DNA from: Corallococcus macrosporus
GTDB lineage: Bacteria; Myxococcota; Myxococcia; Myxococcales; Myxococcaceae
Reading direction: 5' to 3'
Assembly (NCBI RefSeq): GCF_017302985.1
Contig: NZ_JAFIMU010000007.1
Location: 372,001-436,000 of the forward strand
Length of the DNA stretch: 64,000 bases
Shown: piece by piece, positions 38,560-50,533 of the stretch
How the letters are laid out: each line of letters opens with the position of its first letter
How positions within the stretch are numbered: the first letter of the stretch is position 1
Program-made: the position numbers and the translations under genes
Notes under the pieces: model-generated
Told to the model about the DNA's origin: nothing
The model's input: the letters and a program-made list of their open reading frames with translations, nothing else
Databases searched by the model: none

Positions 38560-39735
38560 ATGGCCTCCGATCAGGTAGCGCGACGCGTCTTCGTGGGTCT
38601 CATCCTCCTGTCCATCCTCCTCCTGTGCCTGGTCATCCGGCCCTTCGCGGAGGCGTTCTTCCTGGCGGCGGTGCTGGCGGGCACCTTCTACGGCCTGCAC
38701 AGCCGGCTGCGGAAGCGGCTGCGCGGCCACGGCAACGTGTCCGCGGGCCTCATCGTCACCGGCATCCTGCTGGCGCTGCTGCTGCCCCTGGGCGGCCTCA
38801 CCGCGTTCGTCGTCGCGGAGGTCTCCGAGGGCGCCCGCTTCGTGTCCCAGACCGTGCAGAAGGACGGCATGACGGGCCTGGTGGAGAAGCTGCCCAGCGG
38901 CGTCCGGGGCCCGGTGAGCAAGCTCATCGAACGGCTCCCCCTGGAGGAGGAGCAGATCGACCAGAAGCTCCAGGAGCAGGTGACCACCCAGGGCGGCACG
39001 GCCGCCAAGGCCGTCACGGGGGCGGTGGCCGCCACGGGCACGCTCGTCCTCCAGACGACGATGATGCTCATCGCGCTCTTCTTCTTCCTCACCGACGGCG
39101 CGCGGCTGGTGCAGTGGATCGAGAGCGTGTCCCCGCTGCGGCGCGGACAGACGCGGGAGCTGTTGCACGAGTTCAAGAACACCTCCGTGTCGGTGCTCGT
39201 CTCCACCGTGGCCACCGCGGGCGTCCAGGCGGCGGTCGCGCTCATCGGCTTCCTCATCGTGGGGGTGCCCGCGCCGCTGTTCTTCGCGGGCCTCACGTTC
39301 TTCCTCGCCCTCATCCCCGCCGTGGGCGCCGCGGTGGTGGTGCTCTTCGCCGCGGGCCTGATGTTCCTCAGCGGTCACCCGTGGGCGGCCCTCTTCCTGG
39401 CCATCTGGGGTGTCGTCGTCGTGGGGCTCGTGGACAACGTCGTCAAGCCGCTGCTCGCCCGGAAGGGCATGAACCAGCACGGAGCCATCGTCTTCTTCGC
39501 GCTGCTCGGCGGCCTGGCGGCGTTCGGCACGGTGGGCCTGCTGCTGGGGCCCCTCATCGTCGCCTTCTTCCTCTCCGTGGTGCGCATCTACGAGCGCGAC
39601 TACGGCCGGCCCAACCCCCGGCTGGGCGACCCGGCCACCCCGGGTGGACCGGTGCAGCCGGGGACCCAGCGCGTCGTGCTCACCACGGAGTCCGGCGCGC
39701 CCCTGACGGAAGGTGACGCGCCGTCCAATCACTGA
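38560..39735 (+). CDS. AI-2E family (PerM-like) permease
   Basis: The 391-residue membrane protein has two N-terminal helices, a long soluble loop (about 100-165), and a C-terminal bundle of helices, the standard AI-2E/PerM layout. Motifs include FFFLTDGARLVQWIE, FFAGLTFFLALIPAVGAAVV and a C-terminal DNVVKPLLARKG followed by VFFALLGGLAAFG. Family members include the TqsA-like exporters and Na+/H+ antiporters; the substrate here is unknown. A hydrophilic tail of about 50 residues follows the last helix. Confidence 0.92.
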   Translation: MASDQVARRVFVGLILLSILLLCLVIRPFAEAFFLAAVLAGTFYGLHSRLRKRLRGHGNVSAGLIVTGILLALLLPLGGLTAFVVAEVSEGARFVSQTVQKDGMTGLVEKLPSGVRGPVSKLIERLPLEEEQIDQKLQEQVTTQGGTAAKAVTGAVAATGTLVLQTTMMLIALFFFLTDGARLVQWIESVSPLRRGQTRELLHEFKNTSVSVLVSTVATAGVQAAVALIGFLIVGVPAPLFFAGLTFFLALIPAVGAAVVVLFAAGLMFLSGHPWAALFLAIWGVVVVGLVDNVVKPLLARKGMNQHGAIVFFALLGGLAAFGTVGLLLGPLIVAFFLSVVRIYERDYGRPNPRLGDPATPGGPVQPGTQRVVLTTESGAPLTEGDAPSNH

Positions 39736-39748
39736 CGGGCGGCTCGCG

Positions 39749-41932
39749 TCAGGGCGTGCCCTTCGCCGGCGCCGCTCCCTTCCTGGGAGTCGGCGCCGGA
39801 GCCGTTTCAGGCCCCAGCTCCCGGAACGCCTCGCGCACGGCGTCCGGAGAACCCGCCACCTTCGCGGCGACGCGGCGGGCCTCGGCGGGAGACAGCCGGC
39901 CCAGCAGGCTGCGCTCCAGGTGCTGATCCACGAAGGCCTGGGTGGTGTCCTCCTTCAGGTCCACCAGCTCCCCCTTGGCGTCCAGCACCGGCACCACGCG
40001 CGGAGAGTTGAGCAGCAGCACCGTGGGCACGTCCACGGCCTTCACCCGGCGGGCGACCTCGTCGCGCAGCTTCGGGTCGAAGTGGATGCCCTTCTCCTGC
40101 ACCAGCGCGCGGATGCCCTCGTAGTCGCCGGTGGCCTTGATGACCATGAGCTTGGAGAGCAGCTCGCCCACGGCCTCGCGCATCCTGGCGTAGTCCGGCA
40201 CCGTGAGGTACGTGCGGCCGTCCTGCGTCACCTGCTTCACCGCGCCCTTCTCCTCCAGGAACGTCACCGTCATGTGGTGGCCGCGCTGGTGGTCCTCCTC
40301 GAAGGCGTTGCCCTGCTCCACCCGGCGCAGGTTGGTGAGCCCCTCCACCAGGAAGTCGCGGTACATCTGCCGCGCGATGGCCTCGTGGTCCGGCGACAGC
40401 TCCGCGAGCGCCGGGTCGAACGCGTGCCACAGCGCGATCAGGTCCGCGCGCGCCTCCTCCAGCGTGTTGTCGTACTCCTTGAGGAACACGGACGGGGACT
40501 GGCCCTTCAGCTTCGGATCCACCTGGCCGGAGGCGTGGCCCAGCACCTCATGGAAGGCCACCAGCCACTTGCGCGCGGTGACGGAGTACTTGCGCGCCTC
40601 CTCGCGATCCTCCGCCGTGCGGGAGAACTCCAGCGCCAGGGGCAGCCGCGTCACGGCGGAGGCCGCGTCCATGACGTTGGTGATCATCACGCTCTTGCTG
40701 CCGTACTTCTCGCGGATGTGCTGCTCGTTGGGCAGGTTGATGCCCGCGGGCGGCTCCGGGTTGGACGTGATGAGGTTGATGGCCTTGGCGACGGGCAGCG
40801 CGACCTTCTTGCGGCGGTACTTCTCCGGCCACGGCAGCCGGTCCTCGAAGTACTGGGCCTTCTGGCCCATGAGTACCATGATCTGGTTCTCCTGCGTGTC
40901 GCGGTAGTTGACCAGGGCCTCCCACTGGCCCTTGTGGCCGCGCGGGTCGACGTACGTCTCGATGAAGCCCAGGTTGGCATCCACCTTCGGATCCACCTTG
41001 AGCCACGCGATGTTGTACGCGTCCCAGTCCTTCGGGCTGCCCGTCTGGAAGTAGCGCACCAGCTTGCCCAGCGCGGCCTTCTGCGTGGGCTCCGCGGACT
41101 TCATCGCCTCCTGGAGGTGTGCGATGACGCGCGAGAGCTCCTTCGCGTACAGGCCCGGCTTCACCTTGCCGTCCGGTGTGCCCGCGCGGAACACCTGCTC
41201 CACCAGCTTCCCGTCCTGCTTCACCACGCGCGAGTTGAGCGGGTACTTCTCCGTGAAGCCCACCAGGTCCTTCTCCGTCACGCCGGGGCCATAGGCGGTG
41301 TTGGAGGACGCGGTGAGGAGGTCCTGTCCCGGCGGCGGGGCCTTGGAGGTGAGCTGCGGCTCGAAGGCCGCGTCGAAGAGGGTGGGCTTCAGCTCCTGGA
41401 GCCAGGCCTGGAGCGCGGCGTCATCCTTCACGGACCAGGGCGCGCCGGCCTTGAGGGCTCGCGAGGCGCCCGCGGCCAGCTGCTCCGCGGTGAAGCCCGG
41501 GACGAACTTCTGGCCGGTGGTGCTGTCGTGGTTGCCGCCGTGTCCGTAGAAGCGCAGCAGGTAGTCCGCCAGCTTCGCGTCGAAGCCGGACGCGGCGCTC
41601 TGCGCGTCCCGGCCGAAGAGCCACACGCCCTCCAGCAGTTGCTTCGCGGGCACCAGCTTCCAGCCGAGCTGATCCAACGCGATGTCCTCGCCCGCGTGCG
41701 CCGCGAGCGTGAGCGACCACGCCACGCGCTTCTCCGCCAGGGACAGCTCCGCGATGCCCGGCGCGAACATCTGGGCGACGGCGGTGTTGCCGGAGCGGGC
41801 GCGCAGGAACTTCCCTCCGGGCACGGTGAGGGAGGGCTGCGCGGCCTGCGCGGGCCCGGCGTCGGGCGCCAGGGACTTCGGCGGGGTGGCGGGCGCGGCG
41901 GCGAGGACGGCGGCCAGCAGCAGGGGCTTCAT
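39749..41932 (-). CDS. Exported M49-family zinc peptidase (dipeptidyl-peptidase III-like)
   Basis: The 727-residue protein has a signal peptide (MKPLLLAAVLAAAPA) and a GGAG upstream of the ATG. The active site is HEVLGH (His461, Glu462, His466), the HExxxH motif with three intervening residues that defines family M49. A second ligand motif EEARAD near 491-496 corresponds to the family EExxAD. Dipeptidyl-peptidase III releases N-terminal dipeptides; export into the periplasm suggests nutrient peptide breakdown. The C-terminal ~20 residues are a Pro/Ala/Lys tail. It is convergent with the AI-2E gene. Confidence 0.92.
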   Translation of the reverse strand: MKPLLLAAVLAAAPATPPKSLAPDAGPAQAAQPSLTVPGGKFLRARSGNTAVAQMFAPGIAELSLAEKRVAWSLTLAAHAGEDIALDQLGWKLVPAKQLLEGVWLFGRDAQSAASGFDAKLADYLLRFYGHGGNHDSTTGQKFVPGFTAEQLAAGASRALKAGAPWSVKDDAALQAWLQELKPTLFDAAFEPQLTSKAPPPGQDLLTASSNTAYGPGVTEKDLVGFTEKYPLNSRVVKQDGKLVEQVFRAGTPDGKVKPGLYAKELSRVIAHLQEAMKSAEPTQKAALGKLVRYFQTGSPKDWDAYNIAWLKVDPKVDANLGFIETYVDPRGHKGQWEALVNYRDTQENQIMVLMGQKAQYFEDRLPWPEKYRRKKVALPVAKAINLITSNPEPPAGINLPNEQHIREKYGSKSVMITNVMDAASAVTRLPLALEFSRTAEDREEARKYSVTARKWLVAFHEVLGHASGQVDPKLKGQSPSVFLKEYDNTLEEARADLIALWHAFDPALAELSPDHEAIARQMYRDFLVEGLTNLRRVEQGNAFEEDHQRGHHMTVTFLEEKGAVKQVTQDGRTYLTVPDYARMREAVGELLSKLMVIKATGDYEGIRALVQEKGIHFDPKLRDEVARRVKAVDVPTVLLLNSPRVVPVLDAKGELVDLKEDTTQAFVDQHLERSLLGRLSPAEARRVAAKVAGSPDAVREAFRELGPETAPAPTPRKGAAPAKGTP

Positions 41933-42141
41933 GGCGGGCTCCAGGGAGACGTGACGGGACGTGGCTATCTCGCGCGCGAGGGGGACTCAAGCCGAGAGCC
42001 ATCCCGAGCCACCGGGGCCGGACAGAGCAGGGCGGCGCACCCCGCAGGGAATGCGCGGAGGGCCGCCGGCTCGCGCAAGGATTGCGCCGGGCCCCCTCAC
42101 GCGAGACGCCCCGCGCGTGCACGCATGCTGGCAGGCCCGCC

Positions 42142-42185
42142 GGTACGGGGCATGCAGTGTCGAAGGCCGGACAGGTCCCCGTACC
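42142..42185. promoter_or_regulatory. Strong 9-bp inverted repeat upstream of a small lipoprotein gene
   Basis: GGTACGGGG (42142-42150) and CCCCGTACC (42177-42185) are perfect 9-bp arms with a 26-nt spacer. The right arm ends 23 nt before the ATG. It may be an operator dyad or an mRNA hairpin controlling translation. Confidence 0.45.
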
Positions 42186-42208
42186 TCTCTCCTTTCGAGC
42201 CAGCGCCC

Positions 42209-42559
42209 ATGCCCTCTTCCTCGTCCCTGCCCCACGCGGTCCTGCTCGCCGCCCTCTTCGCCACGGGGTGCGCGGGCTCCGCGAGGGAGACGCGTGCGGA
42301 TCCGGCCCTGCCGCTGCCGCCCCCGCCCACCTCGGTGGCGCTCACCGTGGGTTACGAGGAGGCCGTGAGGCTGGGGGCCGCGTACGCACGGAACCAGGGT
42401 CCGGCACTGGAACTGGTGATGGCGAAGCAGGGGGCCGCGTCCTGGTGGCTGCGCTACGCGTCGCCGGAGGGACACTCCCTGCTGGACCTGCGCGTGGATG
42501 GGCAGACGGCGGCGGTGGAGCCCATTCCCCTGCCGCCGCCCCGCGCTCACGCGGAGTGA
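42209..42559 (+). CDS. Small lipoprotein, unknown function
   Basis: The 116-residue protein starts at 42209 and has a lipoprotein signal (AVLLAALFATGCAG). After a Pro-rich link, residues about 45-105 form one small domain (VALTVGYEEAVRLGAAYARN, then ASWWLRYASPEGHSLLDLRV) that I do not recognise. It ends in a short Pro/Arg tail. It lies 71 nt upstream of the cytochrome operon on the same strand, but the spacing and separate promoter-like hairpin suggest it is not necessarily part of it. Confidence 0.75.
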   Translation: MPSSSSLPHAVLLAALFATGCAGSARETRADPALPLPPPPTSVALTVGYEEAVRLGAAYARNQGPALELVMAKQGAASWWLRYASPEGHSLLDLRVDGQTAAVEPIPLPPPRAHAE

Positions 42560-42630
42560 GCCCGCCACAAAACAGAAGCCTTGCAGTCGCGGTCCCCTTT
42601 TTATGAAACGGGACGCGGTCCCCAGGTCCC

Positions 42631-43257
42631 TTGGAGGTTGCACTGGCGACGCTCATGATGGTGCTGCTCGGCGCGGTGGCTGTGATGGTGGCGATGATTG
42701 CCTATGCCGCGGGGTATCTCACCGCGAACGGGCTGGGTCGCCTGGTGTTGCTCGGAGGGCTGGCCCTGCTTCCGCTGGCCGTCAGCGGGGCCGGCGTCGC
42801 GGTGGGCGTGCGCGAGTCGAGCCAGACGCAGTTCTGCATGGGCTGTCACGAGATGGAGCCCTACGGGCAGAGCCTGTTCGTGGACAACCCCAACGCCCTG
42901 GCCGCGGTGCACTACCAGAAGCGGCTCATCAACCGCGACTCCACCTGCTTCTCCTGCCACACGGACTACGCGCTCTTCGGGGACGCGAAGGCCAAGCTCA
43001 ACGGCTTGCGGCACGTCTGGGTCCATTACTTCGGGACCGTTCCCCCGGAGCCCCGGCTCTATCAGCCGTATCCCAATTACAACTGCCTCCACTGCCACAA
43101 CGATGCGCGCGGGTACCTGGAGGGCGGGCCGCACCGGGAGCTCCAGGCGGAGCTCCAGAGCGGGGCACGTTCGTGTCTGACCTGCCACGACGTCGCGCAT
43201 GACATGGAGGGCGTGAAGGCCCAGAACTTCTGGCTGCCGGAGCGACAGCATCCATGA
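42631..43257 (+). CDS. NapC/NirT-type tetraheme inner-membrane cytochrome c
   Basis: The protein (up to 208 residues) has two N-terminal membrane segments (MVLLGAVAVMVAMIAYAAGY; LVLLGGLALLPLAVSGAG) followed by four CxxCH heme sites (CMGCH, CFSCH, CLHCH, CLTCH). CHEMEPYGQS after the first heme is typical of NapC/NirT/CymA quinol dehydrogenases. It should take electrons from menaquinol or ubiquinol and pass them to periplasmic partners. The start is unsure: TTG 42631 opens the frame but precedes the GGAGG at 42633-42637. CTG at 42643 has 5-nt spacing; ATG 42655 is 17 nt away. First gene of a six-gene operon. Confidence 0.93.
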   Translation: MEVALATLMMVLLGAVAVMVAMIAYAAGYLTANGLGRLVLLGGLALLPLAVSGAGVAVGVRESSQTQFCMGCHEMEPYGQSLFVDNPNALAAVHYQKRLINRDSTCFSCHTDYALFGDAKAKLNGLRHVWVHYFGTVPPEPRLYQPYPNYNCLHCHNDARGYLEGGPHRELQAELQSGARSCLTCHDVAHDMEGVKAQNFWLPERQHP

Positions 43258-43451
43258 GCCATGAGAAGCGCATCCGGGTGGCGGCCCTCTTCGTCCTGGC
43301 GGGGCTGCTCGTCCAATTGTTCGCACGCCTCGCGTGGTCCCCGCTGGCCTTCGTGGTGTCCACCGCGGTGGGCGTGCCGCTGGTCCTGCTGGGGGTCCTG
43401 CTCTACGTCATCACGGTCTGGCGGATCCTCAAGGAGCAGAAGGCCCTATGA
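43254..43451 (+). CDS. Small two-helix membrane protein of the cytochrome operon
   Basis: The 65-residue protein overlaps the tetraheme gene by ATGA and the next gene also by ATGA. Two membrane segments (VAALFVLAGLLVQLFARLAW and LAFVVSTAVGVPLVLLGVLL) with a basic N-terminus and a basic C-terminus (WRILKEQKAL) are visible. No heme motif. It is likely an assembly or anchoring subunit for the quinol dehydrogenase. I know no family name. The tight coupling on both sides argues that it is real. Confidence 0.8.
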   Translation: MSHEKRIRVAALFVLAGLLVQLFARLAWSPLAFVVSTAVGVPLVLLGVLLYVITVWRILKEQKAL

Positions 43452-43783
43452 GCGCCGCTCCCTCCCAGCGCACGGGGTGGTGGCGGGCCGGGCTCGTCCT
43501 CCTCCTGCTCCTCACGACGCCCATCTTCGCCGTGAACTCGCCGCAGGACGTCCGGCTGCCGCCGCTCAAGGAGCGCGCCGCTCCGGCTCCGGCCCTGTTC
43601 TCGCATTGGGGGCATGGCTCCATGCACTGCTACAGCTGCCACCCCGGCACCTTCCCGCAGGCCCCGCTGGGCTTCACGCATCAGGACATGCGCGAGGGCC
43701 GCTACTGTGGGCGCTGCCATGACGGACGGGCCGCCAGGGCCCAGACGTCCATGAACTGCGAGGCGTGCCATGCGCGCCGCTGA
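43448..43783 (+). CDS. Small periplasmic triheme cytochrome (c3-like)
   Basis: The 111-residue protein starts within the ATGA overlap. It has a signal or anchor segment (GLVLLLLLTTPIFAV) and three heme sites (CYSCH, CGRCH, CEACH), plus extra His (HWGHGSMH, FTHQDM) for bis-His ligation. The size and density of hemes resemble tri/tetraheme c7/c3-type shuttles. It probably carries electrons across the periplasm from the NapC/NirT protein to the outer-membrane complex. It overlaps the barrel gene by 14 nt. Confidence 0.9.
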   Translation: MSAAPSQRTGWWRAGLVLLLLLTTPIFAVNSPQDVRLPPLKERAAPAPALFSHWGHGSMHCYSCHPGTFPQAPLGFTHQDMREGRYCGRCHDGRAARAQTSMNCEACHARR

Positions 43784-46043
43784 GCGGAAGGCCTGGACGC
43801 TGCTCGTCTGCGCGTGGGTGCTGGCCGTCCCCGGCGCCACGCGGGCGCAGTCGCAGGAGGAGAAGCGGCGGCAGCTCCAGGAGCGGCTGGGCATCAAGCC
43901 CGCGCCCCCCGGGCAGGCACCGGCGCCCGACGCGGGCGTCATCGAGCCGGGAGCGCCGTCGCCTGTCGTTCCGCAGGGCGCCGTCCGGAGCCCCGCCGCG
44001 CCACCGGCCCGGACGCCTTCCGCCGCGGTCCGGCCGCGCGTGCCGGACTTCGACGATGCCCGGCCCATCCTGGAAAAGGCGTGCGGGTCCTGCCACGGTC
44101 CTGAGGGCATGGCGTCCAGGTCCCGCTGGGTGCTGCGGGGTGAGCCGGGCGACTACGACGCCACCGTGCGTTTCGTGCAGCCCGCGACCGCCGCACAGAG
44201 CCCCCTGCTCAAGAAGGGCACCGGCACCTCGCTTCATGGAGGCAAGAAGGCCCTCGCGGTGGAGTCGGCGGAGTACGCGACGCTCCTGCGGTGGATTGAA
44301 GGGGGCGCTCCGCCCGGCCGGGCACGGGCGGGCACGTCCGCGCACGCCGCATCACGTCCGGAGCCCTCCGCGTCAGCGCAAGCCGGTGCGCCCTCCACTG
44401 CGCCTTCCGCGTCCACGCACCCGGGTTCGCCCACCCCGACGCCTTCCACGCCCGCGAGCTCCGGTGCGTCCTCGACGGCGCCTTCCGCGCCAGCACAAGC
44501 CGGTGCGCCCTCCGCGACGAACGCCACGGCCTCGCAAGCCGGCTCAGCCGCCACTGCGCCTGCCGACGCCGCGCACACGGGTTCGCCTGCCCCGACGGCT
44601 TCCGCGTCCAGCTCGGCGCCCACCACGTCCTCCGGAGCAGTCACGGCCGCGCAGCGCTTCGCGCCCCAGGTCCACGAGGCGCTGCTGGCGGACTGCTCCA
44701 GCTGTCATGCCTCCGACGGGATGGCCGGCGCCAGCCGCTACGTCACCCACACGGATCCAGACGCGCACCTGCGGTCGGTGACGCCCCTGGTGGTGCCCGG
44801 CGACGCCGCCAACAGCCTCCTGTACCAGCGCGCGAAGGGGGACTCGCATCCAGGCGGCGCGGTGTGGGAACCGGGCAGTGCGCAGCTCGCGCTCCTGGCC
44901 CGGTGGATTGACATGAGTGCGTCGGGCTCCGCGCCACCCGCCACGGCGAGCGCCGCCGTGCCCACGCCCTCCGCGCCCGCCCCGTCCAAGCCTCCCGTCC
45001 CGGCGGGCCCGCATCCGCATGCAGGCGTGCCGCTGGGGACCTTCCCGGTGCTCGGCTCGCTGAGCCTCAACGGGCGCTTCGACCTCAACTACGAGCGCGT
45101 CAACTACAACGACCATCCCTTCAAGTCGGAGGGTGAGAGCGCGCTGCGCAGCTATCACCACTTCCTCTTCCTCACGCGGCAGTCCGCGGAGGATCCGGTG
45201 ACGCTCACCCTGGAGGTGCTGTCGTTGCAGTTCTGGGAGTTGGGCTACCGCGTCAGTGGCGAGTCCTGGCCGGTGAAGGTGTTCGCCAAGGGGGGCAAGG
45301 TGCTGGTGCCCTTTGGAGGGGATCCGCTCTTCCACCACAGCTACGGCGGACTCGCCGGCTTCGACCAGCGGGTGCTTCCCGTCGTGTTCGCCCGGGAGGG
45401 CCTCACCGTGAACGTGGAGCACCGGCTGGGGCCCCTCGCCCTCTCCGGCGACGCCTATGTCATCGCCGGCTACCGGTTGAAGCGCGCGGACGCGGTGCTC
45501 AACCTCCAGTCGGACCTGGCACCGCTGGAGGACACCCGACTGGGCGTCGGGGCGCGGCTGGGCGCGGCGTGGGGACCCATCAACCTCTGGTACTCGCCGT
45601 ATTACAACTCACTGGGGTTCGGACGCCGCCTGTTCCTCCAGGCGCTGGACGTGGCGGTGTGGCGCCCGCGCGGGCTCCCGGTGCTGGAGCACTTCTCCCT
45701 GGGCGCCGGGCTGCTGCGCGCGGATGTCTCCGGAGGCGAGGCCGAGGGCTACGGCGGGCCGGGCGCGGACTACTACCACTTCGCCAGCTACCTCCAGCTG
45801 CGCTACCACCCCACGGACTGGCTCTACGTCCAGTACCGGCAGGGCCTGCGCACCTTCGGAAACCGGAGGGGGCTCATCCTGGATGAGAACGCGCTCACCC
45901 GGGAGGACGGCTCCAGCCACAACCTGGGCGTGGTGGCCCGGTGGCGCGGCCTGAGCGCCGGCCTCTACCAGTACTGGAACCTGGAGAAGACAGACGAAAC
46001 GCCGGACGACTTCACCCGGCTGGTGGTGGCGTATGAGTTCTGA
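43770..46043 (+). CDS. Diheme-outer-membrane beta-barrel fusion protein
   Basis: The 757-residue protein begins with a signal peptide (LLVCAWVLAVPGATRAQS). Two small monoheme domains follow: CGSCHGPEGM (~110) and CSSCHASDGM (~310), each ending in a LLRWIEGG / LLARWIDMS motif typical of planctomycete-style cytochrome C-like domains. A Ser/Thr/Ala/Pro linker of about 100 residues lies between them. Residues about 425-757 are alternating beta strands with aromatic girdle residues, ending in VVAYEF, where the terminal Phe is the usual outer-membrane protein signal. This looks like a porin carrying its own hemes, so the protein could be the outer-membrane electron wire. Heme-barrel fusions of this arrangement are not something I recognise. 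A periplasmic heme-containing porin unrelated to electron export is the alternative. Confidence 0.85.
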   Translation: MRAAERKAWTLLVCAWVLAVPGATRAQSQEEKRRQLQERLGIKPAPPGQAPAPDAGVIEPGAPSPVVPQGAVRSPAAPPARTPSAAVRPRVPDFDDARPILEKACGSCHGPEGMASRSRWVLRGEPGDYDATVRFVQPATAAQSPLLKKGTGTSLHGGKKALAVESAEYATLLRWIEGGAPPGRARAGTSAHAASRPEPSASAQAGAPSTAPSASTHPGSPTPTPSTPASSGASSTAPSAPAQAGAPSATNATASQAGSAATAPADAAHTGSPAPTASASSSAPTTSSGAVTAAQRFAPQVHEALLADCSSCHASDGMAGASRYVTHTDPDAHLRSVTPLVVPGDAANSLLYQRAKGDSHPGGAVWEPGSAQLALLARWIDMSASGSAPPATASAAVPTPSAPAPSKPPVPAGPHPHAGVPLGTFPVLGSLSLNGRFDLNYERVNYNDHPFKSEGESALRSYHHFLFLTRQSAEDPVTLTLEVLSLQFWELGYRVSGESWPVKVFAKGGKVLVPFGGDPLFHHSYGGLAGFDQRVLPVVFAREGLTVNVEHRLGPLALSGDAYVIAGYRLKRADAVLNLQSDLAPLEDTRLGVGARLGAAWGPINLWYSPYYNSLGFGRRLFLQALDVAVWRPRGLPVLEHFSLGAGLLRADVSGGEAEGYGGPGADYYHFASYLQLRYHPTDWLYVQYRQGLRTFGNRRGLILDENALTREDGSSHNLGVVARWRGLSAGLYQYWNLEKTDETPDDFTRLVVAYEF
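44345..44640 (+). repeat. Low-complexity Ser/Thr/Ala/Pro linker repeat
   Basis: Imperfect repeats of the type QAGAPSTAPSAS, THPGSPTPTPST, QAGAPSATNATA are encoded, with related DNA units at about 44380 and 44495. They separate the two heme domains of the barrel fusion and probably form an extended spacer in the periplasm. Confidence 0.7.
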
Positions 46044-46464
46044 TTCACGCATCCCGTCCCTCGCCGCGGTCCTCATGGCGGCGGTCGCGCTGCTCGTGGG
46101 CTGCGCGGACTTCGAGCGGGGCCCGGTCTCCGCCGACGCAGGGGTTCCTCCCGTCGATGGCGGCGGCGGGGATGGCGGCGGCGCCGTCTCCTTCGCGACC
46201 GACGTCCATCCGCTGCTCACCACCGGATGTCAGAGCTGCCATCGCAGCGGAGGGGCCGCGGGCTCCACCTCCTTCCTGCTGACGGGCGAGGCCGAAGCGG
46301 ACTACGCGGCATCGAGCTCCCTGACGGACAGTTCCAATCCCTCCGCCAGCCGGCTGCTGCGCAAGGCCTCCGGCGCGGGCCACGGCGGCGGGACCATCTA
46401 CGGGGCGGACACCCCGGAGTACCAGACCCTCCTGTCGTGGATCTCCGGAGGCGCTCAACCATGA
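46033..46464 (+). CDS. Monoheme cytochrome lipoprotein
   Basis: The 143-residue protein overlaps the barrel gene by 11 nt and the next frame by ATGA. It has a lipoprotein signal (LMAAVALLVGC), an Asp/Gly-rich link, and one heme domain (CQSCHRSGGAAGS) that ends in LLSWISGGAQ, the same type of domain found twice in the barrel fusion protein. It is probably an outer-membrane lipoprotein that contacts the barrel. Its single heme would fit as an intermediate between barrel and the decaheme partner. Confidence 0.88.
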   Translation: MSSDSRIPSLAAVLMAAVALLVGCADFERGPVSADAGVPPVDGGGGDGGGAVSFATDVHPLLTTGCQSCHRSGGAAGSTSFLLTGEAEADYAASSSLTDSSNPSASRLLRKASGAGHGGGTIYGADTPEYQTLLSWISGGAQP

Positions 46465-46490
46465 CGTCTTTCTTTGCCAGGAAGGCTCCG

Positions 46491-48821
46491 ATGAAACGCT
46501 CCCCGCTGCTCCTGGTCGGACCGCTGCTGCTGGCCCTGGCGCTGAGTGCCTGCGCCAAACTGGAGACGCCCCACCCGGAAGTCATCACCGACGGTCCGCA
46601 CTCGGTGCTCGTGGGCCAGACGCTTCAGCTCACCGCCACCACGCGCGAGGCCACCGACGACGGCTATCAATGGGAGAGCGAGAACCCGGCCATCGCCACC
46701 GTGGACGCCGCCGGACAGGTGACCGGTGTGGCCGCGGGCGAGACGGCCATCAAGGTCACCGGCACGATGTCCAGGCTGGAAGCGCGCCACGTGGTGGTGG
46801 TGATGGGCGCCCTCGCGGGCGACGCCGGCGTCGACCCCAGCCAGGTGCCCTACTTCCTCGCGTGGTCGGGCTCGCCGCATGCGGACACCACCGCCGAGGC
46901 CTTCTCCCACTGGAACAAGGACGGGCTCGTCCCCACCAGCTGCGCGCGGTGCCACAGCTCCGAGGGCTACATCGACTTCCTGGGCGGTGACGGCTCCACC
47001 GCGGGCAAGGTGGACGCCCCCGCCCCGACAGGGTCGGTGGTCCGCTGCGAGACGTGCCACGACAGCGCCGCCGCCAGCCTGACCTCGGTCACCTTCCCCT
47101 CGGGCAAGAAGGTCACCGGCCTGGGCCCGGAGGCCCGGTGCGTGGTGTGCCACCAGGGGCGCGCCTCCGGGAAGGACATCGACGCGCAGGTCGCGGACGC
47201 GGGCGTGGTGGGCGAGGACACGACCTCACCCGCCCTGGGCTTCACCAACATCCATTACTACCCCGCGGGCGCGACGCTCTTCGCCAACCAGGCCGCGGGC
47301 GGCTACCAGTACTCGGATCAGACCTACGACTCGCGCTTCCGCCACGTGCCGGGCTTCGACAAGTGCAACGAGTGCCATGAGCCGCACAGCACGCGCGTCC
47401 GGTGGGACGCCTGCGCCACCTGCCATCCCGGTGTGACGGACGTCACGAAGGCGTGGGACATCCGGCAGATGGCCTCGCGCAACCAGGACTACGACGGGGA
47501 CAAGAACCGTACCGAGGGCGTCTATTACGAGATCCAGGGCCTGAGGGAGCGGCTGCTGGCCGCCATCCAGCGGTACGGTGCGGAGCGGGCCCAGCCCCTC
47601 TGCTACGGCAACACCCACCCCTACTGGTTCCGGGACACCGACGGGGACGGGACGTGTGGGCAGGCTGAATCCGTCGCCACCAACGCGTACGCCAGCTGGA
47701 CCCCGCGCCTGCAGAAGGCGGCCTACAACTATCAACTCTCCCGTGTGGACCCGGGCGCGTTCGCGCACAACGCGAAGTACATCCTCCAGCTGCTGCATGA
47801 CTCGACCCAGTCGATGAACAAGGGGCTGAGCGTCCCCTTCGACATGTCCCTGCTGGTGCGCAACGACCCGGGCCACTTCAACGGCGCCAGCAAGGCGGCG
47901 CGCAACTGGGACTCGGGCGAGAGCGTCCAGGCCAGCTGCTCGCGCTGTCACAGCGGCGCGCAGGGCTACCGCTTCTTCGTCCAGTACGGCGTGGGACAGC
48001 AGGTGCCGGAAACCGCGAATGGCCTGGAGTGCTCCACCTGCCATGAGAACTTCGAGCCGGACTACGACGTCTTCGTCCCCGCCCAGACGTGGCTGCCGGA
48101 CGGCAAGACGGTGAACCTGCCGGGCCAGGACAACCTCTGCGCCAACTGCCACATCGGCCGCGCGTCCAAGGCCACCATCGACACGGCGCTGGCGGCGGGG
48201 GGCACGCCGCGCTTCCAGAACGTGCACTACCTGCCGGCCGCGGGGACGCGCGAGGGAACGCTGGTCCGCATTGGCTACGAGTACCCCAACAAGACCTACG
48301 CCGGCCGGCTCACGCACATGGGCGGCGTGCAGTGCACCAGCTGCCACGTCCCCGGCAAGAGCAACCACACCTTCCGCATCCAGGACGTGTGGGGCGAGCG
48401 CTGCAAGACGTGCCACGCGGACCAGACCGCGGCCGAGCAGCTCCGGGTCGTCCACGTGTCGGACTACGACGGCGACGGAAACACGACGGAGACCCTGAAG
48501 GCGGAGGTGGAAGGAATGGCCGCCCGCCTGCTGACCGCGATGCGCGGGGTGACAGGCAATGGCCTCTGCTACAACGGCGACGTCAACCCGTACTTCTTCA
48601 AGGACACGGACAAGGACGGCACCTGCGGCGCCACCGAGTCCGTCTCCGCCAACGCGTTCGCGCCCTTCACGCCGGCGCTCGTGAAGGCAGCGCACAACTA
48701 CCAGTTGAGCAAGAAGGACCCGGGCGCCTGGGCCCACAACTTCAACTACGTGGGACAGCTCCTCTACGACAGCGTGGAGGACCTCACCGGGGCGGCCCCC
48801 TTGAACATGCTTCGGCCTTGA
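46491..48821 (+). CDS. Decaheme outer-membrane lipoprotein built from two pentaheme repeats
   Basis: Two starts are possible: ATG 46461 (ATGA overlap with the previous stop) and ATG 46491, which follows AGGAAGG and opens a clean lipoprotein signal (LLLALALSAC). The latter gives 776 residues. A BIG2-like Ig domain follows (VTGVAAGETAIKVTG). Ten CxxCH sites lie in two sets of five: CARCH, CETCH, CVVCH, CNECH, CATCH and CSRCH, CSTCH, CANCH, CTSCH, CKTCH. The two halves are about 330 residues apart and share further motifs (GRAS, NIHYYPA/NVHYLPA, DYDGD, LCY). Two Asp-rich DTDGDGTCG / DTDKDGTCG loops look Ca-binding. The domain count recalls MtrC/OmcA-type surface decahemes, but no close similarity is claimed. 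Confidence 0.93.
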   Translation: MKRSPLLLVGPLLLALALSACAKLETPHPEVITDGPHSVLVGQTLQLTATTREATDDGYQWESENPAIATVDAAGQVTGVAAGETAIKVTGTMSRLEARHVVVVMGALAGDAGVDPSQVPYFLAWSGSPHADTTAEAFSHWNKDGLVPTSCARCHSSEGYIDFLGGDGSTAGKVDAPAPTGSVVRCETCHDSAAASLTSVTFPSGKKVTGLGPEARCVVCHQGRASGKDIDAQVADAGVVGEDTTSPALGFTNIHYYPAGATLFANQAAGGYQYSDQTYDSRFRHVPGFDKCNECHEPHSTRVRWDACATCHPGVTDVTKAWDIRQMASRNQDYDGDKNRTEGVYYEIQGLRERLLAAIQRYGAERAQPLCYGNTHPYWFRDTDGDGTCGQAESVATNAYASWTPRLQKAAYNYQLSRVDPGAFAHNAKYILQLLHDSTQSMNKGLSVPFDMSLLVRNDPGHFNGASKAARNWDSGESVQASCSRCHSGAQGYRFFVQYGVGQQVPETANGLECSTCHENFEPDYDVFVPAQTWLPDGKTVNLPGQDNLCANCHIGRASKATIDTALAAGGTPRFQNVHYLPAAGTREGTLVRIGYEYPNKTYAGRLTHMGGVQCTSCHVPGKSNHTFRIQDVWGERCKTCHADQTAAEQLRVVHVSDYDGDGNTTETLKAEVEGMAARLLTAMRGVTGNGLCYNGDVNPYFFKDTDKDGTCGATESVSANAFAPFTPALVKAAHNYQLSKKDPGAWAHNFNYVGQLLYDSVEDLTGAAPLNMLRP

Positions 48822-48898
48822 GGGTGGAATCCGCGCGGAAGCATCGTCGCGCACCGGGGCAGGCCCGGTGAGCGACGGTCGCCGAGGAACGCGGACCG

Positions 48899-50533
48899 AT
48901 GATGCCCTTCTTGCTCTTCCAGCCCTCCCACGCGGCACGCATTGGCCGTTGGGCCTTGCTCGTCCCCCTGCTCGCCCTGCTGGGTGGACCGGTCGCATGT
49001 GGTGACGACCCGGACGAGCCGCGTCCCGATGGCGGCTCCCAGACCGTGGACGCGGGCACTGACATCGACGCGGGCACTGACATCGACGCGGGCACGGACG
49101 CAGGCACGGAGGCCGACGCGGGCACCGATGCGGGCACGGTGGCGTGCACCCCGAGCGGTTGGGTCGACACGCCTCCGGACCTGAGCGTCATCCAGGACCC
49201 GTCGCTGGACCTCAAGGTCCGGCTGCAGGCCATCCCGGGCCTGACCGTGACCGAGGAGCGGACCAGCGGTGTCCCCGTGGGCTACCGGTTCTTCGTCATG
49301 AAGTACAACCAGCCGGCGGATCACGCCCACCCGGAGTGCCAGCGCTTCGAGCAGGTCGTCACGCTGCTGCACAAGGCGGACACCAGCCCGATGGTGCTCT
49401 ACACCAGCGGATACAACGTCTCCACCGGGGTCGGCCGCTCGGAGCCCCAGCAGCTCCTGACCGCGAACCAGCTCTCCGTGGAGCATCGCTTCTTCAGGTC
49501 CAGCACCCCGTCCCCCGCGGACTGGAGCCACCTGACCATCCGCCAGTCCGCGGATGACTTCCACCGCCTCACCCAGGCACTCAAGTCCATCTACACCGGC
49601 AAGTGGGTGTCCACCGGTGGCAGCAAGGGCGGCGAGACGGTGGTGTTCTTCCGCCGCTTCCACCCGGACGACGTGGACGCCACCGTGGCGTACGTGGCGC
49701 CCATCGCGAAGCGCAACGACGAGCGCTTCGTGACGTTCCAGGACGGCGTCGGCGGTGACGCGCAGGCCGCCTGCCGCGAGCGGCTGTGGGCCTTCCAGCG
49801 CGAGGTGCTCTCGCGCCGGGAGAACATGCTGAAGCTCCTGAAGGACTACGCGGTGGACCAGAACGCGACGTACTCGCAGCTCGGCTTCGAGCTGGCGCTG
49901 GAGCACGGCGCCATCGAGACCTACTTCGCCTTCTGGCAGTACGACGTCGCCTCGCGCTGCGTGCAGAACATCCCCGACACCACCGCGACGGACCAGCAGC
50001 TGTTCGACGCGATGGACCGGCAGGTCGGCATGAACTCCTTCGCGGACGAGGGCCTCAAGAACTACGCCGCCTACTACCACCAGGCCGCGACGGAGCTGGG
50101 CTGGCCCCAGCCGTACGACAAGCACCTGGGCGCGCTCATCCACTTCCCGGACACCGACACCGGCGAGGTGTACTCGCCGCCTGGCATCCCGTTCGTGTTC
50201 CGTCCGCAGGCCATGCCGGACGTGCAGGACTGGGTGTCCACGCAGGGGCAGCGCCTGATGTTCATCTACGGCAGCCACGACCCCTGGACCGCGGCGGCCT
50301 ACACGCTGGGCAACGCGCAGGACTCCTACCTGTACTCGGTGGCGGGCGGGAACCACGGCTCGCGCATCAGCCAGCTCCCGGCGGCCCAGCAGGCCGAGGC
50401 GAAGGCCACCCTCAACCGCTGGATGGGCCTGTCCCCCGCGCTGAAGCGCGCTCCGAAGTACGTGCCGTCCGAGGAGCCGCCCGTCTTCGGGCCCCACGTG
50501 CCGCCCCGCCTGCGCGAGGCGTCGCGGAACTAG
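48899..50533 (+). CDS. S37-family tripeptidyl aminopeptidase, lipoprotein
   Basis: The 544-residue protein has a lipoprotein signal (LLALLGGPVACGD), then a DAGTD-repeat linker, then a peptidase S37 (PS-10) domain. The nucleophile elbow is STGGSKGGE (Ser242), followed by FRRFHPDDVDATVAYVAPIA, a family hallmark, with IYGSHDPW and GGNHGSR for the Asp and His of the triad. S37 enzymes release N-terminal tripeptides. Attached to the cell envelope, it may process peptides from prey. Located 78 nt after the cytochrome operon and probably transcribed separately. Confidence 0.92.
   Translation: MMPFLLFQPSHAARIGRWALLVPLLALLGGPVACGDDPDEPRPDGGSQTVDAGTDIDAGTDIDAGTDAGTEADAGTDAGTVACTPSGWVDTPPDLSVIQDPSLDLKVRLQAIPGLTVTEERTSGVPVGYRFFVMKYNQPADHAHPECQRFEQVVTLLHKADTSPMVLYTSGYNVSTGVGRSEPQQLLTANQLSVEHRFFRSSTPSPADWSHLTIRQSADDFHRLTQALKSIYTGKWVSTGGSKGGETVVFFRRFHPDDVDATVAYVAPIAKRNDERFVTFQDGVGGDAQAACRERLWAFQREVLSRRENMLKLLKDYAVDQNATYSQLGFELALEHGAIETYFAFWQYDVASRCVQNIPDTTATDQQLFDAMDRQVGMNSFADEGLKNYAAYYHQAATELGWPQPYDKHLGALIHFPDTDTGEVYSPPGIPFVFRPQAMPDVQDWVSTQGQRLMFIYGSHDPWTAAAYTLGNAQDSYLYSVAGGNHGSRISQLPAAQQAEAKATLNRWMGLSPALKRAPKYVPSEEPPVFGPHVPPRLREASRN
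49049..49138 (+). repeat. DAGTD(I)-type tandem repeat linker
   Basis: An 18-nt unit (gacgcgggcactgacatc) is repeated, first twice exactly and then as variants, coding for DAGTDI, DAGTDI, DAGTDAGTEADAGTDAGT. It is an acidic flexible spacer between the lipid anchor and the peptidase. Variation in copy number between strains is likely but not phase-variable, since units are multiples of three. Confidence 0.8.

Follow-up and report, generated by a model that had tools for sequence, protein, structure and literature searches.

In a 64,000-nucleotide window of the Corallococcus macrosporus genome (9.8 Mb; contig NZ_JAFIMU010000007.1, positions 372,001 to 436,000 of the forward strand, the window being this whole stretch), six overlapping genes on the + strand at positions 42631-48821 form a multiheme cytochrome cassette whose probable role is to carry electrons of respiration from the inner membrane to, or past, the outer one. 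The genes, here numbered 1 to 6 in their order along the strand, contain 4, 0, 3, 2, 1 and 10 heme-binding CxxCH sites, respectively, 20 in total, against an average of 0.06 and at most 2 when the residues of the six proteins were shuffled 2000 times. A preliminary description of this DNA had listed the same six genes and 20 heme sites, which the counts and the shuffles bear out. It had also spoken of overlaps or ATGA links at five of six junctions; inspection of the open reading frames and the sequence upholds the overlaps and corrects the number, as six genes meet at five junctions, each of them an overlap (of 4, 4, 14, 11 and 4 bases from gene 1 to gene 6). I consider it somewhat better than an even call that the cassette works as a porin-tethered conduit for electrons taken from quinol.

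The cassette is conserved as a unit. Its gene order, which the preliminary description proposed to look for in other myxobacterial genomes, is present in full in 15 distinct loci including the window, and the heme formula 4-0-3-2-1-10 is the same in all 15. Three of these loci belong to metagenome-assembled genomes (bin.157, Chersky_194 and Co_bin.297) outside the family or of unclear placement, with identities of 51-60% for the gene-4 barrel and 53-57% for gene 6. Operons cut by contig ends (G079, G082 and fen_1088) were left out of the count of complete operons and agree as far as their sequence reaches. The flanking genes of the window were not found beside the operon outside the genus, and the flanks vary among relatives, so that the conserved unit consists of genes 1 to 6. 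Between gene 6 of the window and that of C. exercitus there are 35, 22 and 97 substitutions at codon positions 1, 2 and 3, and as the changes fall mostly at third positions, the reading frame is under selection.

An AlphaFold2 model of gene 4, built from ten sequences (mean predicted local distance difference test, pLDDT, 60.9), predicts a barrel at residues 420-757, where the preliminary description had placed one at residues 425-757, two heme domains, compact and helical (about residues 94-181 and 299-381), and long disordered linkers with pLDDT < 50. DSSP assigns 17 strand segments to the modelled barrel, which I nevertheless take as 16-stranded because it superposes on porins of the OprO/OprP type, which have 16 strands. 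OprP and OprO rank first in Foldseek (OprP, E 1.4e-10), and VIA-align superposes the model on OprO with Z 23.9 and an rmsd of 4.1 over 297 aligned residues at 16-18% identity, the other porins shown reaching Z 21.2-22.6. As modelled, gene 4 would be an OprO/OprP-like porin with two tethered heme domains and not a 26-strand MtrB. Its C-terminal residue is Phe, as is common in outer-membrane barrels, and residues around 509-537 of the porin are strongly conserved. The family scans are empty for the barrel, with no Pfam porin family at E up to 1, and a sequence search of solved structures with gene 4 returned no match at E up to 1. Each heme domain holds one invariant histidine besides its CxxCH (H156 and H360, in 10 of 10 sequences), and no methionine is conserved as a candidate distal ligand, a pattern that suggests low-potential hemes ill-suited to Fe(II). 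Gene 5 shows 36-44% identity to a gene-4 heme domain (tblastn in the loci), and its paralogy is also seen in a three-way alignment.

In gene 6, all ten CxxCH sites are invariant in 11 of 11 sequences, and the two pentaheme modules are homologous to each other (hhalign 100%, E 4e-70). The Big_2 domain scores 47.6 bits, VIA-align gives Z 13.9 for this immunoglobulin (Ig)-like domain, and the protein as a whole matches mainly Ig-like domains among solved structures. An AlphaFold2 model places a helical segment behind each pentaheme module, in a weak model with a mean pLDDT of 47 in the heme regions; since the model is poor there and VIA-align is limited to the Ig domain, I claim a fold for the Ig part only. 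Beyond CxxCH and the Ig domain, exactly ten histidines are invariant in the 11 sequences, window included, five per module. The repeat alignment pairs His 140/472, 265/589, 295/619 and 436/759, and it brings 309 and 636 to within a few residues of each other, with a gap between them. Ten spare histidines for ten hemes suggest bis-histidine hemes and hence a wire.

The pentaheme repeats of gene 6 appear to be distantly NrfA-like. With the second half, NrfA chains are the best profile matches in the Protein Data Bank (PDB; 6v0a, E 0.04; 8bcx, 0.11; 3ubr, 0.35), all below usual significance, and its five hemes are in register with those of a myxobacterial NrfA (hhalign 69%, single-comparison E 4.3e-5). 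With the first half, the NrfA chain 3ubr comes second (E 0.17) behind an unrelated ribosomal chain, and hhalign against NrfA aligns only 21 columns with a probability of 21%. The NrfA segments CHVEYYF, after heme 3, and QHPEFE, before heme 4, which I take to be active-site positions, have no counterpart in gene 6 by hhalign, and PF02335 is not matched at E up to 1. Several multiheme families are matched, among them PF22113 (MtrC/MtrF domains II/IV; 39 bits, cut-off 30). Across 195 genomes of the phylum, profile matches to gene 6 occur in 103, many of the listed weak ones being limited to the Big_2 positions. Outside the genomes with the operon, strong matches to the heme part occur in G183, G006, G042, G033 and G046 and a weaker one in G163, and the gene-4 barrel was not found in the gene-6-like stretches of these six genomes (tblastn, 1e-3). 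In G006, a single 15-heme protein (L082, 6947-10753) apparently repeats the gene-6-type pentaheme module a third time, and in G033 four adjacent open reading frames (L084, 1233-15092) hold 12 CxxCH sites each, the third by coordinate being related to gene 6.

At the inner-membrane side, gene 1 is a candidate quinol dehydrogenase. The features of NapC/NirT proteins that I looked for are all present: PF03264 at 38.2 bits (cut-off 24.1), an N-terminal membrane helix, four hemes and a first heme motif of the form CxxCHxM, whose C69, C72, H73 and M75 are invariant in 11 of 11 aligned sequences, window included. Both of its hydrophobic peaks, at residues 5-23 and 38-56, are N-terminal, and its scores against the NCBIfam equivalog models for NrfH, NapC and TorC lie far below their cut-offs. 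Gene 2, with hydrophobic peaks at 9-27 and 31-50, follows gene 1 directly in 15 of 15 complete operons; a gene-2-like protein also follows the gene-1 homologue in three of the six lower-scoring gene-1 loci examined. Gene 3 matches PF14522 with 42.6 bits (cut-off 24.8) and TIGR04257 with 50.1 bits (cut-off 40).

The surroundings of gene-1 homologues link the cassette to known kinds of electron export. In bin.157, gene 1 is immediately preceded on its strand by a decaheme gene of the OmcA/MtrC family (TIGR03507, 396.7 bits, cut-off 209.3), with a gap of 2 bases; among the 15 operon loci with a scored gene 1, this is the only one with a TIGR03507 gene beside the operon. A gene-1 profile found 68 places in the 195 genomes, 36 of lower score and 32 of at least 228 bits, of which 15 are in operon genomes and 17 in others. 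Thirteen of these 17 non-operon homologues have an MtrC-family gene at a distance of no more than 3 kb; the two genes share a strand in all 13 cases, and the MtrC-family gene is the upstream one in 12. The remaining four adjoin a 23-heme gene. The MtrC-family list used for this count held the stronger TIGR03507 places, weaker fragments being left out, and the profile included four rows (G018, G070, G147 and G154) chosen beside MtrC-family genes from 11 fetched loci; without these four, an MtrC-family neighbour is found for nine of 13 and a 23-heme neighbour for four of 13. TIGR03507 is over its cut-off in 54 of the 195 genomes, and the MtrB/PioB barrel (PF11854) is found in one (E <= 1e-5, 351 bits), which suggests that the phylum mostly pairs other barrels with its MtrC-family proteins.

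A recurrent cluster in the Myxococcota, observed in nine loci (L163, L164, L168, L160 and L205-L209, of genomes G070, G154, G147, G018, G068, G146, G071, G105 and G108), sets a tetraheme NapC-like protein beside an open reading frame with 23-25 CxxCH sites, and several of these loci have a ten-heme OmcA/MtrC-family gene and 12-heme open reading frames nearby. The fourth heme motif of the NapC-like protein is CX4CH in four aligned rows. The gene-4 barrel had no match in these clusters, and counterparts of genes 5 and 6 were not found there either. The distant barrel relative in G010 adjoins open reading frames of 30, 13 and 6 CxxCH and a 496-residue protein with no Pfam match (L037, G010:C23, 516-7143); a histidine kinase and a sigma-54 response regulator come next.

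The distribution of the cassette is patchy. The gene-4 barrel is present in 18 of the 195 genomes (E <= 0.001) and in nine of the genus's 16 genomes; G010 and G185, among the 18, carry distant barrels and no operon. In two single-contig genomes of the same genus that lack the operon (G087 and G077), blastn homology to the window ends at 42028 and restarts at 48965, and their corresponding stretches hold no open reading frame of at least 60 residues with two or more CxxCH. A third operon-less genome, G083, misses the upstream flank and is hence uninformative on gain or loss. The G+C content of the gain/loss block is 0.706 vs 0.693 in its surroundings. A scan of named genomes with two peptide patterns recovered nine of 15 known operon genomes, the window's own not counted, so the operon may also occur outside the Myxococcota. 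In the titles and abstract openings of the literature searched, whose coverage leaves out most subscription journals and preprints, I found no account of the operon or of electron export in Corallococcus, and none of multiheme cytochromes in the Myxococcaceae.

The coordinates are collected in Table 1. Two of the starts can be set in more than one way: gene 1 may begin anywhere from a TTG at 42631 down to an ATG at 42655, and gene 6 at 46461 or 46491, the mechanical open reading frame from 46227 extending into gene 5. No sigma-70-type promoter was found at the cassette. The small putative lipoprotein gene ahead of gene 1, absent from the gene list of the preliminary description, lies inside the gain/loss block; it has matches only in Corallococcus-type operon-bearing loci (tblastn, E <= 1e-3, among the fetched loci) and no Pfam match at E <= 0.001. 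Further upstream, a + strand open reading frame at 39713-42559 was dropped as a gene, as the minus-strand frame at 39749-41932 (peptidase M49) codes better. Downstream, an S37-type peptidase gene (48899-50533) borders the cassette, a family matched 8-17 times in each of the 16 genomes of the genus, though many of these matches are short pieces. In Co_bin.297, a diheme gene of the MauG/cytochrome c peroxidase type (L050, 12876-14150) lies about 1.3 kb downstream of the operon.

Table 1. Features of the cassette and its immediate surroundings (positions in the window).
Feature	Position	Strand	Basis or remark
Small putative lipoprotein gene, 116 aa	42209-42559	+	Optional adjunct of the cassette
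Gene 1, tetraheme quinol dehydrogenase candidate of the NapC/NirT family	42631-43257	+	4 CxxCH, PF03264
Gene 2, membrane protein of 65 aa with two helices, probably acting with gene 1	43254-43451	+	Hydrophobic peaks
Gene 3, c7-type triheme cytochrome, presumably periplasmic	43448-43783	+	PF14522, TIGR04257
Gene 4, presumed signal peptide, two monoheme domains and C-terminal porin	43770-46043	+	AlphaFold2, Foldseek, VIA-align
Gene 5, lipoprotein with one heme, paralogous to the heme domains of gene 4	46033-46464	+	1 CxxCH, lipobox-like LVGC
Gene 6, decaheme lipoprotein with Big_2 Ig-like domain and two tandem pentaheme modules	46461-48821	+	10 CxxCH
Gain/loss block, present in the window and missing from two genomes of the genus	~42029-48964		blastn

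If the cassette is a quinol-driven conduit, gene 1 together with gene 2 would take electrons from the quinone pool and hand them to the triheme protein of gene 3, from which they would reach both tethered heme domains of gene 4 as well as gene 5, the monoheme lipoprotein related to them. The chain would end with gene 6, a wire of twice five hemes held at the outer membrane by its lipid anchor, which would deliver to an acceptor at or outside this membrane, such as Fe(III), humics, flavins or another soluble shuttle. The outer membrane could be crossed in two ways. A heme domain of gene 4 might dock in the mouth of the porin and touch gene 6 or a shuttle, or a soluble acceptor might enter the pore and meet the gene-4 heme there, much as is proposed for Fe(II) in Cyc2 (PMC8406198). 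One invariant spare histidine for each gene-4 heme and ten for the ten hemes of gene 6 are consistent with the bis-histidine hemes of a wire. The direction of the electrons, the surface position of gene 6, the physiological acceptor and the mode of contact between heme and acceptor at the pore are what I infer from these features. More tentatively, and with more doubt than belief, one may see here a third outer-membrane electron route, neither the wire-in-barrel of MtrAB nor the monoheme Cyc2, in which tethered monohemes swing at a small porin and feed a wire of pentaheme repeats derived from the NrfA superfamily, the cassette having spread among predatory, reputedly aerobic myxobacteria and been exchanged with MtrC-type clusters behind homologous quinol dehydrogenases.

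Several observations weigh against a conduit. The barrel is of the general-porin kind, in which space for an unbroken line of hemes is hard to see, and while the preliminary description had proposed to look for a complete barrel with heme domains at its periplasmic mouth, only the barrel is borne out by the model, the low-confidence linkers leaving the heme domains unplaced relative to the pore. Gene 6 does not match TIGR03507 at E up to 1, and none of the 16 genomes of the genus does at E <= 1e-10; PF11854 has no match in the window's own genome at E <= 0.001. In gene 6, His 150, 446, 665 and 745 are also conserved, in 10 of 11 sequences, so that the count of ligands is not unique. Gene 2 is no steady companion in the clusters with MtrC-family or 23-heme genes, a gene-2-like protein following gene 1 in two of nine, and no FNR-like box was found at the cassette. 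The rows from MtrC-family loci in the gene-1 profile bias it toward finding more such loci, and of the 36 lower-scoring gene-1 loci the six that were examined have in no case another open reading frame with at least three CxxCH in the fetched stretch, hence gene-1 homologues are not exclusive to electron export. Taken as a whole, the path from quinone pool to outer membrane drawn in the preliminary description gains from the conservation of the unit and its heme formula, from the predicted porin, from the MtrC-family gene in bin.157 and from the neighbourhoods of gene-1 homologues; its likeness to the MtrCAB type loses, given the general-porin barrel, the lack of an MtrA-sized wire and the position of gene 6 outside the OmcA/MtrC family model.

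Alternatively, the cassette may be a quinol-dependent reductase, in which gene 6 would act as an enzyme of the NrfA/multiheme superfamily on a small substrate (nitrite, sulfite, a metal complex or an organic compound) admitted by the gene-4 porin. The general porin fold would suit this, as would the place of NrfA chains among the PDB matches, first for the second half of gene 6 and second for its first half, and the heme register with the myxobacterial NrfA. However, these matches stay below usual significance, with little of the first half alignable to NrfA, the CHVEYYF and QHPEFE segments lack a counterpart, and five invariant spare histidines per five-heme module would leave no obvious open heme. 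In addition, the same genome has a separate NrfHA-type adjacent pair, a tetraheme gene and a pentaheme gene with five CxxCH (at about G000:C7:3116141-3118053; L118, 6142-8054), and NrfA-type genes are matched in 26 of 39 genomes of the family at E <= 0.001, in 21 of them over the cut-off. Nitrite reduction is thus available independently of the cassette, and the lineage may depend less exclusively on oxygen than it is reputed to. The nitrite-reducing role that the preliminary description had offered as an alternative is weakened, both by this pair and by the lack of counterparts to CHVEYYF and QHPEFE in gene 6. I regard the reductase as unlikely.

Quite unlikely, too, is an inward flow as in Cyc2, with Fe(II) or another reduced donor meeting the gene-4 heme at the porin and its electrons passing to the quinone. 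An N-terminal heme with a 16-strand porin is indeed the architecture of Cyc2 as given in PMC8406198, and the CymA protein is described in PMC6295460 as fit for both quinol oxidation and quinone reduction. But gene 4 lacks the Cyc2 consensus motif and has two heme sites instead of one, its histidines with no methionine ligand candidate would point to low-potential hemes, and Cyc2 figures in the available part of PMC8406198 as a single-heme protein with no ten-heme lipoprotein beside it. Last, the porin heme domains might reduce a metal complex or redox compound in a non-respiratory import or detoxification at the outer membrane. The conserved stretch around 509-537 and the patchy presence within the genus (9 of 16 genomes) would agree with such an accessory function, whereas twenty hemes are many for the task, no fitting transporter is seen among the neighbouring genes scanned for families, and the flanks differ among relatives; this I hold to be the least likely of the readings, and improbable.

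Myxobacteria are reputed to be strictly aerobic soil predators. If the conduit reading is correct, certain strains of Corallococcus and Myxococcus get rid of the electrons of respiration at their outer membrane or outside it, which would change this picture and could be of relevance in dense swarms, soil crumbs and prey biofilms. Single hemes tethered to a small porin would then make up a minimal kind of conduit, unlike MtrCAB in design. The homologous quinol dehydrogenases that stand before differing sets of cytochromes offer a handle for finding more conduits, and the conduit reading can be tested directly in pairs of strains that differ at this site in having or lacking the cassette.

The nearest known systems are those of Shewanella and other porin-cytochrome (Pcc) clusters, where, as here, a NapC/NirT dehydrogenase, a periplasmic cytochrome, an outer-membrane barrel and a ten-heme lipoprotein are clustered (MtrCAB/OmcA with CymA). 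CymA, a NapC/NirT member, is the quinol oxidase of extracellular electron transfer in Shewanella and is capable of both quinol oxidation and quinone reduction (PMC6295460). Unlike in MtrCAB, the barrel of the cassette is a general porin, PF11854 not being among the gene-4 matches at E up to 1; the heme domains are fused to the barrel; no periplasmic cytochrome of the size of MtrA (about 8-10 hemes or more) is present, genes 2 to 5 carrying 0, 3, 2 and 1 hemes; and gene 6 is without a TIGR03507 match. The clusters of other Myxococcota with MtrC-family or 23-heme genes share with the cassette a homologous gene 1 (about 30% identity) beside multiheme cytochromes, but they carry an OmcA/MtrC-family decaheme protein, 23-25-heme open reading frames and, mostly, 12-heme ones. 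NrfA shares its five-heme pattern with the second half of gene 6, the hemes falling in register, whereas in gene 6 the module is duplicated, with five candidate distal histidines in each copy, no PF02335 match and no conservation of the active-site segments.

Cyc2 is described as a 16-strand porin with an N-terminal heme domain and a fold matching phosphate porins, with a motif AxPxFAR[QK][TY] before the CxxCH of its single heme, and Fe(II) is proposed there to enter the pore and meet this heme (PMC8406198). Gene 4 resembles it in having an N-terminal cytochrome part fused to a predicted 16-strand porin, and differs in having two heme domains on long linkers, in that AxPxFAR[QK][TY] was not found, and in its place within a 20-heme operon with a quinol dehydrogenase candidate. 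The barrel fold is also that of the phosphate-selective porins OprP and OprO, from which gene 4 is set apart by the absence of a Pfam porin match, by the added heme domains and by the 16-18% identity. Given that the MtrCAB features (barrel, MtrA-like wire and MtrC family) and the Cyc2 features (single heme and motif) are lacking, the cassette is a member of neither system, and probably it nevertheless works like them.

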